Shown here one piece after another: positions 16,293-45,303 of a stretch of DNA of 59,286 nt (position 1 is the stretch's first letter; the number at the start of each line of letters is the position of its first letter). The stretch comes from a virus: positions 1 to 59,286 of IMG/VR virus record IMGVR_UViG_3300045994_000112. One strand, 5' to 3'. The translations under genes and the position numbers were made by a program. Under the pieces are notes generated by a model, which was given only the letters and a program-made list of their open reading frames with translations, made no database searches and was not told the DNA's origin.

Positions 16293-16400
16293 ACTAGCAG
16301 AATGACTTTTACCTTTGTTATTTAACTTCGGGCATTTCGATATTGCTATCTAGACGGACGGTCCCGACTTGCTCGTTATTGCAGCAATCATTCTAAAAAT
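16293..16400 (-). ncRNA. Y-RNA-like element, divergent copy
   Basis: Closing stem AGAATGA/TCATTCT with the conserved TTGCTGCA strand after the 5' arm and TGCTAG after the 3' arm. Compared with the family consensus (AGGAT.../...ATCCT) the second G-C pair is A-T here, a compensatory change. It lies between tRNA-Arg(CCG) and tRNA-Gly(GCC). The interior has further hairpins with an ATCGAA loop. Confidence 0.6.
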
Positions 16401-25697: not shown

Positions 25698-26466
25698 GTT
25701 CTTCAAATAATGTTGGTTGTCCTTTTATCTTCTTACAAAAATGATTTGCTATTGCTCGATGCGTGTCAAAGCCAAATGTTGTGTATTCTTCTTTACCATA
25801 CGAGTTAACCATATCTTCTTTTATGTGTTTGTCTTCGTAGTCTATCTCTAAATCAAAATACGGCACACCCTCTGCTCTGCACACTTCACCAGCAAGTACC
25901 TTATTCTTGTAAAAATTGTAACTGTTTGACTTCCAGTCAATAAAGTCCCAATACTCTGGATACGGTATTGTTTGATTATCTTCAGGCGTCTTATACACTA
26001 ATCCTTGATACTTAATGGACGCAAATTCTCTGCGCAAGTATGTGGGCCAAATTACTAGCACTGCATCTATGGTGCCCTTTAATGCTTTGACGGTGTTCAC
26101 TACAATGCGAGATACAGAGTCGGCGCTGCCACCAGGCAAGCCCATGTTCATTACTTTGTGTTGCGGAAACATCTCTTGCAACTTAGAGATAAATGTTTGG
26201 TCTTTCTCAAGACAAAGTCCGAACACATTACTATCACCAAGGCACAAAATATTGTGTGTGTGTAATAACGACTCATCGTAATCAAACGTGCTATTGTAAC
26301 CTAAGTTGTTTATTGTGTATTCAACGTGCATGGGTTTGATCGTAGTGCCAGCAGCTTCTTTTAAGTTAATTCTATACGACGGGAACTCCCATGCAGGGGG
26401 AATCTGTTCCTTGAAGTACAAATTCCTGTGATGTGTTTTGTCTAAGTAATATTCAATCTTACTCAT
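25681..26466 (-). CDS. SGNH/GDSL-like hydrolase
   Basis: 261 residues. LCLGDSNVFG near residue 77 is a block I GDS motif with the catalytic Ser. MGLPGGSADS near 110 fits block II. TFGFDTHRAIANHF near the end fits block V (DxxH). Likely an esterase acting on glycan or lipid. Its ATG overlaps the stop of the PP-loop gene (ATGA). Confidence 0.68.
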   Translation of the reverse strand: MSKIEYYLDKTHHRNLYFKEQIPPAWEFPSYRINLKEAAGTTIKPMHVEYTINNLGYNSTFDYDESLLHTHNILCLGDSNVFGLCLEKDQTFISKLQEMFPQHKVMNMGLPGGSADSVSRIVVNTVKALKGTIDAVLVIWPTYLRREFASIKYQGLVYKTPEDNQTIPYPEYWDFIDWKSNSYNFYKNKVLAGEVCRAEGVPYFDLEIDYEDKHIKEDMVNSYGKEEYTTFGFDTHRAIANHFCKKIKGQPTLFEERCRSS

Positions 26467-27574
26467 TAAACTTCAACTTATACCCAATAGAGTTAAACTG
26501 TCGCATATTAAGCTTATCGGGTCCTTGCACTAAAAACTTGCCCGCAGCATCGTTTAAAAACTCTATATACCCACTGAGGTAATTATCGACTATTAATCGA
26601 TTACTGTTAAACAAGGATTGAAACCATCTCGCAGGACGGCCAGTATACTCTGATCCAGTAAATTTTCCTGATTCCGGAATGATGAGTGTCGTCGCAAAAT
26701 CTCCTACGTGCTGTATTGGACTTACATTTATGTCACCAAAGCGACCACATGCATTTATACTGTATTCGTGCCAGTGGAACTTAGTTGGGTGATGCATATC
26801 ATTGTAGTGCATTACATCTGCCGGAGATACCGCTGCTTGGCATTTTGATTTAATATAATCCAGCATCATATATGATTGCTTTATATGCAGCTCAGGTAAA
26901 TCAGGTGAGATATAAAAACAATCTATCCCCGAATATCCCATAATCTTCCCGTAATTGTTGTCAGCTTGATAAGAGTACACGCCGTCAGTGGTAATACGAA
27001 GTCTTGGCTTCTCAAATCCAACAATGGATATGTAATCATCTGTGCCTATAATTTTGCTCACATAATCGTAAGCAACACCATCGCCACCCAACATTCCAAA
27101 ATTTTGCTTGGCTCCTTTGGACCATATCCAGTCCGGGGAGTCATATGCTTCTAGCATCAGCTTATCGTAGTCATCTGATACAATTATTTTTGTTGTTTTA
27201 TCGTATAACCCAGCAGTAAATAAATCCATTACTTCCTTGTACACATCAGCTTGGTCTGGGCGACGTCGCAAAAACAATGCGTCGATGTGTATGTTGTTTC
27301 GCTCAAACACTTTGTAAATCGTGTAACTGTCAGTGCCCCCTGAAAATTGAAGCACTATTGGCTTACCTTTAGCCGCAATTTGGTGAGCTCTGATATCCAA
27401 TAATTCATCCCAAGATTGAGATGGGCGTTTACTCCAATCACATTTCGTAAACGCAGAATCGTACATGTTAAATCTCATGTCTAGATTGTTAGTCGCTGCA
27501 TGGTGCGCGGCAAGATATCGATTATCAAATCGAACAAACGGTGTTACATTCTCCATTCCAACTTCGTAATACAT
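26459..27574 (-). CDS. PP-loop ATP pyrophosphatase (asparagine synthase-like)
   Basis: 371 residues from MYYEVGMENV. VLQFSGGTDSYTIYK near residue 80 is the PP-loop SGGxDS, which binds ATP for adenylation. The family includes asparagine synthetases, QueC, TilS and amide-forming enzymes. Partner genes (sulfotransferase upstream, SGNH downstream, all coupled) suggest a biosynthetic or decorating operon. The start at 27574 overlaps the upstream stop (TAATG). Confidence 0.75.
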   Translation of the reverse strand: MYYEVGMENVTPFVRFDNRYLAAHHAATNNLDMRFNMYDSAFTKCDWSKRPSQSWDELLDIRAHQIAAKGKPIVLQFSGGTDSYTIYKVFERNNIHIDALFLRRRPDQADVYKEVMDLFTAGLYDKTTKIIVSDDYDKLMLEAYDSPDWIWSKGAKQNFGMLGGDGVAYDYVSKIIGTDDYISIVGFEKPRLRITTDGVYSYQADNNYGKIMGYSGIDCFYISPDLPELHIKQSYMMLDYIKSKCQAAVSPADVMHYNDMHHPTKFHWHEYSINACGRFGDINVSPIQHVGDFATTLIIPESGKFTGSEYTGRPARWFQSLFNSNRLIVDNYLSGYIEFLNDAAGKFLVQGPDKLNMRQFNSIGYKLKFNE

Positions 27575-29450: not shown

Positions 29451-29574
29451 ATAACAGGATCACTTTAATTGGCGGCTGCTCTACCGACTGAGCTACTCCC
29501 GATTGCTCGGAAGGAGGGATTCGAACCCTCGACAGGCTGCTTGGGTTTATTAAATGCTGGACTGATCCTAAAAC
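29451..29574 (-). ncRNA. Y-RNA-like element with sealed, permuted tRNA-like body
   Basis: Closing stem GGATCA/TGATCC, GTCCAGCA strand, CCTGTTAT end, then a TTTAAT/ATTAAA helix. Inside, read 5' to 3': T arm GAGGG-TTCGAAT-CCCTC, acceptor half CTTCCGA, a GCAA tetraloop, acceptor half TCGGGAG, then D arm GCTC...GAGC with GG. The order is a circularly permuted tRNA whose acceptor end is closed by a GNRA loop. This is the known layout of YrlA-type bacterial Y RNAs. Confidence 0.8.
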
Positions 29575-33648: not shown

Positions 33649-33709
33649 ACAACAGGATTCGCTTTGTTTTACATATGAAAGTATAAAATTGCTGAAAGAA
33701 TCCTAAAAC
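33649..33709 (-). ncRNA. Y-RNA-like element, short
   Basis: Closing stem AGGATTC/GAATCCT, TTTCAGCA strand, CCTGTTGT end, with only a 30-nt loop and no tRNA-like body. Confidence 0.65.
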
Positions 33710-34677: not shown

Positions 34678-34856
34678 ATTGTTTTAAGGCTGACGTTTGT
34701 GCTTGCGTACAGGATTCGAACCTGCCCATCCGGGTTTAAAGCCCAGTATGCTATCCACTACATCAACGTAATCTCCTTACCAACCATACTGCAATACTTA
34801 TGGACAGGAGTCAAACTTCAGACTGCTTCAAATTGCAGTTATCAGCCTTAAAACAA
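34678..34856 (-). ncRNA. structured RNA, type II element c, with tRNA-like body
   Basis: Same GTTTTAAGGCTGA terminal stem as 29823-30001, closing at TCAGCCTTAAAAC or one base shorter. Inside is a tRNA-like fold with anticodon arm CTGGG-CTTTAAA-CCCGG (triplet TTA, complementary to the TAA stop), T arm GCAGG-TTCGAAT-CCTGT, weak acceptor pairing and no CCA. Confidence 0.6.
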
Positions 34857-42555: not shown

Positions 42556-42667
42556 ATAACAGGATGTGGCGTCTATAGACCGGGACTCGAACCCTTGACG
42601 CACCCCCAGCGGGCCGGCCTCGCGAAGTATGGAGCGAGTTTTGAGTTTTGCTGCAATCATCCTAAAC
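42556..42667 (-). ncRNA. Y-RNA-like element with T-arm domain
   Basis: Closing stem AGGATG/CATCCT, TTGCAGCA strand, CCTGTTAT end. The body has GCGTC/GACGC enclosing GGG-TTCGAGT-CCC, and a CTCGC/GCGAG hairpin. T-loop present, no sealed acceptor stem. Confidence 0.65.
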
Positions 42668-42748: not shown

Positions 42749-42818
42749 ATAACAGGATCAACTTTTTAGTTTTCGAACAAAGAAAATTTTATTAAGTTTT
42801 GCTGAACTGATCCTAAAA
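42749..42818 (-). ncRNA. Y-RNA-like element, short
   Basis: Closing stem AGGATCA/TGATCCT, GTTCAGCA strand, CCTGTTAT end, A/T-rich loop of about 40 nt. Confidence 0.68.
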
Positions 42819-43594: not shown

Positions 43595-43663
43595 CAGGAA
43601 GAGGTTGTCGACTAAGACACCAAAAGTTTAAGTCTGTATTGTTTGCAGAACTCTTCCTAAAAC
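43591..43663 (-). ncRNA. Y-RNA-like element, short
   Basis: Closing stem AGGAAGAG/CTCTTCCT, GTTCTGCA strand, CCTGTTAT end. The stem has A-A and T-T runs in place of AT, still paired. Confidence 0.65.
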
Positions 43664-44006: not shown

Positions 44007-44132
44007 ATAACAGGATGCCTTAATAGACGGCGTGAAGCCGTTGCTCTGCCATTAGAGCGTACTACGCGATGTGCGTGGTGTTGGAATCGAACCAACTGAT
44101 CTAAAAGATCGTTGCTGCAAGCATCCTAAAAC
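44007..44132 (-). ncRNA. Y-RNA-like element with sealed, permuted tRNA-like body
   Basis: Closing stem AGGATGC/GCATCCT, TTGCAGCA strand, CCTGTTAT end. Body in order: hairpin GATCT/AGATC, T arm GTTGG-TTCGATT-CCAAC, acceptor half ACCACGC, 5-nt loop, acceptor half GCGTAGT, D arm GCTC...GAGC with GG, then hairpin ACGGC/GCCGT. A second clear YrlA-type permuted tRNA mimic. Confidence 0.8.
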
Positions 44133-45234: not shown

Positions 45235-45303
45235 ATAGCAGGATAGTTTTTACGGTTTTGATTAAAAGTCAAATGTAATTGTTTGCTGAACCTATCCTAT
45301 AAC
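45235..45303 (-). ncRNA. Y-RNA-like element, short
   Basis: Closing stem AGGATAG/CTATCCT, GTTCAGCA strand, CCTGCTAT end, small A/T-rich loop. Confidence 0.65.

Follow-up and report, generated by a model that had tools for sequence, protein, structure and literature searches.

A phage RNA with a permuted tRNA body as a putative Y RNA of a phage-encoded Ro60-type protein

Why should a phage encode an RNA that carries the parts of a tRNA in rearranged order and with its ends sealed? The question is raised by a 116-nucleotide (nt) element in the viral record IMGVR_UViG_3300045994_000112 of IMG/VR, of which positions 1 to 59,286 (59,286 nt, hereafter the window) were analysed. A first-pass annotation, made from the sequence alone, had described the region 44007-44132 as a sealed, permuted tRNA mimic (T arm, acceptor, cap, D arm) with two extra hairpins, built to the same plan as another element near 29451. 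The analyses below bear out this description of the structure and point to an answer: the element is probably a Y RNA, a putative ligand of a Ro60-type protein encoded by the same phage.

The permuted and capped tRNA body at 44127-44012

The minus strand encodes the RNA (44127 to 44012), which begins 6 nt past the end of a tRNA-Arg and ends 11 nt ahead of a tRNA-Thr. Its end stem, AGGATGC/GCATCCT, is paired at all seven positions, with the 5' strand (AGGAUGC) at 44121-44127 and the 3' strand (GCAUCCU, then GUU), located by the strict descriptor defined below, at 44012-44018. The 5' strand is directly followed by TTGCAGCAA, which contains the conserved motif UUGCAGCAA (44112-44120). There then follow, in order, a 5' extra hairpin at the place of a variable arm (GATCT-TTT-AGATC, 44098-44110); a T arm (GTTGG-TTCGATT-CCAAC, 44080-44096); an acceptor whose strands ACCACGC and GCGTAGT are joined by an ACATC cap (ACCACGC-ACAUC-GCGUAGU in the RNA, 44061-44079) and pair at six of seven positions, the remaining one being C.A; a D arm (GCTC-TAATGGCA-GAGC, 44043-44058); and a 3' extra hairpin at the place of an anticodon arm (ACGGC-TTCAC-GCCGT, 44027-44041), whose loop includes UCA and which is separated from the 3' strand of the end stem by CTATTAAG. 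The minimum free energy of this RNA is -42.8 kcal/mol, compared with -27.9 (standard deviation 3.5) for dinucleotide shuffles (z -4.25), none of 200 shuffles folding as low. No tRNA was called at 44127-44012 by ARAGORN, nor by Rfam at gathering level.

Relatives of the RNA were collected from viral contigs and aligned (13 sequences, one duplicate, L257, being dropped); searches by DNA pattern returned many chance matches in a wide version and none in a stricter one. Standard pairs occupy 97.7% of the pair cells in this alignment and 31.8-42.0% once the partner is shifted by one to three columns. In 12 of the 28 pairs both sides have changed: three of seven in the end stem, five of seven in the acceptor and four of five in the 3' extra hairpin. 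The T and D arms are likewise paired in the alignment, in addition to matching a descriptor. The 5' extra hairpin, of 3-6 base pairs (bp), is present in 13/13 relatives with differing sequences, and the anticodon-like 3' hairpin is paired in 98.2% of cells and gapped in two sequences. Pairing of the end stem and acceptor was partly a criterion by which relatives were selected, whereas the two extra hairpins were never demanded by the search, and they are conserved. The hexamer CAGCAA within the motif is invariant in all 13. The sealed tRNA look-alike is thus a real, permuted and capped tRNA body, and its two additional hairpins are retained features.

The kinship with the element near 29451 also held. 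This sister RNA (29456-29569, minus strand, 114 nt) carries the same kind of end stem around a permuted tRNA body and matches the Rfam family YrlA with 35.5 bits (E=2.3e-6, 29475-29537); its fold is less exceptional than that of the 116-nt RNA (z -1.71). A descriptor of T arm, capped acceptor and D arm averaged 0.010 matches over 200 Markov copies of the window (which, here and below, are first-order and not exact dinucleotide shuffles) and found four matches in the window itself. A capped acceptor can also be simulated by tRNAs lying side by side, and this tandem-tRNA artefact explains the two matches that lie inside tandem tRNA pairs; it does not explain the two free ones, at 44043-44096 and 29478-29530. 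The suggestion that a parent tRNA could be found among the phage's own tRNAs led to no convincing candidate among the 56 that ARAGORN calls in the window, the closest T arm agreeing at 15 of 17 positions (tRNA-Gln) and the closest D arm at 12 of 16 (other tRNAs).

A shared handle and a Ro60 homolog

What the first-pass annotation had missed is that the end stem is a handle shared by about twelve RNAs of the window, and that the window encodes a Ro60 homolog. The handle consists of a 7-bp end stem, UNNCAGCAA next to it on the 5' side, and CUGUU at and after the 3' side. Written as a pattern (AG plus five bases, at most five more, CAGCA or a close variant, then the complementary closing bases and CUG), it recurs on the minus strand of the window. 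A strict descriptor has 10 matches in the window, of which nine are on the minus strand and one is on the plus strand, compared with 1.37 per Markov copy (200 copies, both strands, maximum 5). We count twelve handle RNAs in all, each on the minus strand and 37 to 249 nt long: nine strict matches, one with the motif CAGCC, one with six of seven pairs and one recognised by eye. None of the twelve overlaps an ARAGORN tRNA, seven begin 5-8 nt past a tRNA, and most lack a full tRNA body.

The protein is encoded at 20501-21913 (minus strand, 470 amino acids) and contains the Pfam domains DUF2828 and DUF7788, as identified in a scan that covered 30 window proteins. An AlphaFold2 model built from 20 aligned sequences has the helical-repeat ring and vWA domain of the Ro60/Rsr fold, and the alignment consensus includes the vWA motif DVSGSM. 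Foldseek gave seven matches with E<=0.001, every one of them a Ro60 protein; they include Deinococcus Rsr and the Ro60 of Thermus phage phiLo (7e-7 each) as well as human and Xenopus (PDB 2i91 and 1yvp) entries. VIA likewise ranked Ro60/TROVE entries in its first ten places (Z 16.1-11.3, the next match scoring 9.0). A phmmer search with the protein against PDB sequences found nothing, the relation having emerged by fold comparison alone; as judged from the modelled fold, the protein is a Ro60 homolog. Its relatives were found by tblastn in 677 of 50,697 phage records, some of them already named Ro-like. The record of phage Aeh1 notes a likeness to an Arabidopsis protein, and the family has plant members too.

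Handles track this gene. They occur in 36 of 40 Ro loci, with 97 matches against 10.3 in Markov copies, and in 29 of 120 comparison loci chosen by tRNA pattern (44 matches, Markov 20.3). Conversely, among contigs picked for their handles without regard to Ro, 11 of 25 encode the Ro domain, which is present in one of the 25 control contigs, themselves longer (Fisher p=0.001; both sets were chosen by us and total 1.08 and 2.54 Mb, respectively). We also built a covariance model, R1, on 47 short copies from other contigs and phages, with no window sequences; these were selected by eye from 108 short elements as showing handle and hairpin clearly (61 were left out), and since the descriptor had required end-stem pairing, only the inner helix and the match counts are informative. 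R1 has matches at E<=0.01 in 11 of the 14 named phages that possess the Ro domain and in none of the 9 that do not; the Ro-positive phages had been chosen through a Ro search, and two training sequences come from DLP6 and ZZ01. In T4, R1 finds no match, and the stable RNAs rnaC and rnaD both lack the handle. These two RNAs (‘species 1 and 2’, L415 909-1172) sit in a tRNA array, and rnaC ends with a T-arm-like hairpin.

The handle also occurs in the leader of the Ro gene itself, in 29 of 43 leaders compared with 0.16 in Markov copies; mostly, 11-24 nt lie between the end of its 3' strand and the start codon. The 43 leaders comprise 29 of the 40 Ro loci, 13 named phages and the window (loci that were near-identical, cut short or unclear in their start were left out, as was Aeh1, whose start is unclear); the 29 matches are those of 25 viral loci, the phages DLP6, ZZ01 and CP30A, and the window. 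The window's own copy (AGGTTAT...GTAACCT, 21964-21928, minus strand, 37 nt; R1 E=5.6e-4) ends 14 nt before the ATG. In addition, three handle RNAs lie immediately upstream of the Ro gene in Listeria phages LP-064 and cka17. PMC12282133 reports that purified virions of a Listeria phage contained its Ro homolog; non-coding RNAs encoded close to this gene rank with the most abundant transcripts of the phage, and the authors proposed them to be Y RNAs. The handle RNAs of LP-064 and cka17 are consistent with these abundant CKA15 transcripts (region 26,236-26,727), which is no proof of identity. Two annotated features of Cronobacter phage S13, a 121-nt ‘tRNA-Ser’ (L404 7923-8041) and a 113-nt ‘tRNA-OTHER’ (L405 54-296), overlap handle or YrlA-like RNAs and are probably misannotated Y-type RNAs.

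Besides the leader copy, R1 recovers four handles in the window, all short and on the minus strand: 45240-45298 (59 nt, E=1.3e-11), 42754-42814 (61 nt, E=2.4e-9), 33654-33704 (51 nt, E=9.5e-8, also matched by the Rfam model RF01414 with E=2.3e-5) and 43596-43658 (63 nt, E=0.029). The first of these mimics a Lys anticodon arm (UUUGA-CUUUUAA-UCAAA), and such mimicry recurs among short members. A hairpin of 5 bp with a 7-nt loop is found in 57 of 107, against 12-21 for loops of 4, 5, 6, 8 or 9 nt, and U33 together with R37 (loop positions two and six) in 37 of 107, against 1.7 after shuffling; the 107 include five from the window, chance matches and related sequences, and are therefore not independent. 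Among the copies of named phages (n=31), nine have a canonical anticodon arm, compared with 0.55 when shuffled. Both shuffles preserve single-base composition only. The loops CUUUUAA, CUUGUAA and CUGUAAA are identical to the anticodon loops of the phage's own tRNA-Lys, tRNA-Thr and tRNA-Tyr, and some other short members look like D loops or T arms. One of the window's ARAGORN tRNAs (34699-34773, minus strand) has the anticodon TTA, reading UAA stops, and is a possible ochre suppressor.

The remaining handle RNAs, again on the minus strand, are longer. Upstream of the leader copy lie a descriptor match with a large structured body (21972-22220, 249 nt), a copy with the motif CAGCC (22232-22396, 165 nt), and the one placed by eye (22408-22537, 130 nt), which has the stem GGGATAG/CTATCCC and a T-arm-like hairpin. 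The body of the 249-nt RNA has no Rfam match; kindred RNAs of about 250 nt precede the Ro gene in other contigs (L136, L138, L140, L143, L144, L160, L162 and L163) and share conserved stretches such as GAACTGAACCGATATACTGGGGATGGGG. The copy with six of seven stem pairs lies at 42561-42663 (103 nt), and a probable handle RNA with the stem AGAATGA/TCATTCT matches the strict descriptor at 16299-16394 (96 nt).

What the handle RNAs may do

That the window encodes a Ro60 homolog together with a handle on about twelve RNAs suggests a Y-RNA-type system. We consider it likely that the handle RNAs are ligands of the Ro protein, and it is probable that the 116-nt RNA is a Y RNA in this sense. The handle RNAs would be cut from the tRNA polycistron, as the start of 7/12 just past a tRNA suggests; the phage Ro ring would bind the handle; and the inner body, be it a whole permuted tRNA or a single arm, would point outward and be recognised by tRNA-acting proteins. 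The body could then tether a tRNA-acting enzyme to Ro, in the manner of the Deinococcus Ro/Y RNA/PNPase machine, or it could soak up host tRNA-cleaving nucleases and so spare the tRNAs of phage and host from destruction. Because different tRNA parts sit on one handle, a decoy or tether role fits better than a general one, and we regard it as evenly poised between true and false. The leader handle lies beside the ribosome site, which suggests that Ro represses itself: we lean moderately towards a model in which free Ro would block its own translation through this handle until the supply of RNA suffices. A fuller picture, which we offer only tentatively and hold to be rather doubtful as a whole, is that of a modular system in phages with a DUF2828-type Ro60, in which one Ro-binding handle displays imitations of tRNA parts (Lys, Thr, Tyr, Arg, Asn, Met and Ser anticodon arms, T arms and whole permuted bodies) against tRNA-cleaving defences, Ro is tied to RNA supply through its leader, and the handle belongs to the class of the Dictyostelium Class I RNAs.

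Several observations weigh against a Y RNA assignment. Pfam TROVE (PF05731) has no candidate in the window; the Ro model has a mean predicted local distance difference test score (pLDDT) of 76, low at residues 174-194, and a predicted TM-score (pTM) of 0.71; and its Foldseek TM-scores against Ro60 are 0.35-0.53. Both permuted-body RNAs fall below the YrlA (RF02553) gathering cut-off of 69 bits, the sister with the score given above and the 116-nt RNA with 15.3 bits (E 0.7, aligned over its full length, 44009-44127). Of the 25 handle contigs, 14 show no Ro, the contigs being fragments; at E<=0.01 R1 has no match in three of the 14 Ro phages (CP30A, EfV12 and LeBron); and the leader descriptor finds no handle in 10 of 13 named-phage leaders. 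About two-thirds of the short members have no canonical anticodon arm. Finally, a sister contig (L135/L359) contains close homologs of the window's handle RNAs at 33654 and 44012, and L135:2507 was among the R1 training sequences.

The alternative that fares best, though unlikely, is a free decoy of tRNA nucleases or modification enzymes, the handle merely guarding the ends and Ro being uninvolved. The several kinds of tRNA mimicry would suit such a decoy, and end stems in general protect RNA ends, but an end clamp has no need of CAGCAA, and the handle tracks the Ro gene and occurs in the Ro leader. We hold it less probable still that the handle is recognised by some other protein or serves as a signal for processing (by an RNase or RNA ligase) or packaging, linked to Ro by neighbourhood only. 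A processing role is conceivable given the seven copies that begin 5-8 nt past a tRNA, and PMC7919456 describes Dictyostelium RNAs of the same terminal plan that bind an RRM protein. For a processing signal, however, leader copies and tracking of Ro in unrelated phages would be unexpected, and tRNA-bearing phages without this Ro lack the handle (0/9).

It is very improbable that the locus is a circularly permuted tRNA gene whose product, once cut in the cap and ligated at the handle, becomes a functional UGA-reading tRNA. Every tRNA element is present in permuted order, UCA stands in the loop of the last hairpin, and in the relative L344 this place is taken by a regular CAU anticodon arm. Yet the loop varies in size and sequence among relatives, in keeping with the earlier doubt that UCA acts as an anticodon; the relative L327 lacks the hairpin altogether; and the handle, which would have to be discarded, is the best-kept part and is common to RNAs of 37-63 nt that have no tRNA body. 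A working permuted tRNA is rejected on these grounds, the anticodon loop not being kept while the handle is; nor does the RNA have what would place it with tRNAs (RF00005) or permuted tRNA genes, namely a tRNA-finder call and a kept 7-nt anticodon loop. That decayed tRNA remnants or chance folding produced the RNA within a tRNA-rich stretch, whose 56 tRNAs could supply tRNA-like pieces, is negligible in view of its z-score (-4.25), the compensatory changes and the 0.010 descriptor matches per Markov copy.

If the Y RNA reading is correct, about a dozen Y RNAs with one handle and different tRNA parts would make the purpose of bacterial Y RNAs testable, since each body predicts its tRNA-acting enzyme partner. 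With the handle consensus, unannotated Y RNAs could be detected across the several hundred phages that carry this Ro, and the leader handle suggests a simple feedback for the protein.

Comparison with known Ro60 and Y RNA systems

Y RNAs bind Ro60 proteins and usually occur singly or in pairs, as do YrlA RNAs, whose usual number is one or two. Despite a score far under the Rfam cut-off, a YrlA-type Y RNA is the most fitting reading of the 116-nt RNA: it has the same order of arms (T arm, capped acceptor-like stem, D arm) within a long end stem, and a putative Ro60-type partner protein, encoded in the same genome at 20501-21913. It also shares the general character of Y RNAs, whose ends form a lower stem of about 7 bp flanked by a distorted and conserved stretch; here this is 7 bp followed by CAGCAA, the vertebrate bulge pattern lying outside this comparison. 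It differs from YrlA in its handle (UNNCAGCAA/CUGUU as against AUGCU/ACUUG in the Rfam consensus), in the added anticodon-like and variable-like hairpins, and in being one of about a dozen RNAs that share the handle, of which the short members display single arms.

YrlA is reported from bacteria and mycobacteriophages (PMC12282133), and PMC7790460 suggests its tRNA-like domain as a competitive inhibitor of anticodon nuclease. Unannotated YrlA-like RNAs were seen in the phages CcrPW, RcXuper, Gilson, Alone3 and RHph_TM30 (L001, L002, L003, L005 and L006), in none of which the DUF7788 Ro domain or the handle was found. In Microbacterium phage FuzzBuster (L004), a YrlA-like RNA lies directly upstream of a gene for a ‘Ro-like RNA binding protein’, which has no DUF7788 match and is perhaps a second type of Ro.

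In Deinococcus radiodurans, the outer part of the Y RNA is tRNA-like, and the RNA tethers Ro to PNPase. The Ro homolog of the window shares the Ro60 fold of Rsr from this bacterium (2nvo). Unlike the Deinococcus machine, the system described here is phage-encoded, multi-copy and placed within a tRNA array, and no PNPase, a component of that machine, emerged from the Pfam scan of 30 window proteins. The end stem of Y RNAs is the Ro site, according to PMC4726728.

Phage Ro60 proteins homologous to that of the window include those of phiLo (PDB 9l5y) and Listeria phage CKA15 (CKA15_055) and the mycobacteriophage ‘Ro-like RNA binding protein’; in the literature searched, no handle family with a leader copy was found for known phage Ro60 proteins. 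Y RNAs, their tRNA mimicry and phage Ro homologs are thus already known (PMC12282133, PMC7824862 and PMC7765460), while an open-licence collection without the main Y RNA papers and reviews yielded no paper on a handle common to many phage RNAs, on members with anticodon arms or on a leader copy.

A parallel to the short members comes from a eukaryote. As set out in PMC7919456, Dictyostelium Class I RNAs have a short variable end stem, an 11-nt motif (T3, C6, C9, A10, A11) beside its 5' strand, a CUGU end and a variable remainder; they are 42-65 nt long, are encoded by many genes, and are not reported there outside dictyostelids. The plan of the phage short members is the same, with an end stem, an adjacent 11-nt motif and a CUGU end. 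The Rfam model RF01414 matches three window handles, the best with 30.5 bits (E 2.3e-5), which is below its cut-off of 41.5 bits; at E<=0.1 it matches eight of the 14 Ro phages and, among the nine others, T4, none above the cut-off. T4 lacks this Ro, and its match (NC_000866 132052-132103, E 0.0024) is a chance match or an orphan. Class I RNAs differ from the phage handles in being eukaryotic and in that their known binder is an RRM protein, and the likeness may reflect either common descent or a like solution. It yields a partner hypothesis for the social amoebae, in which Class I RNAs would, if it is true, be Y-RNA-like ligands of a Ro-like protein.
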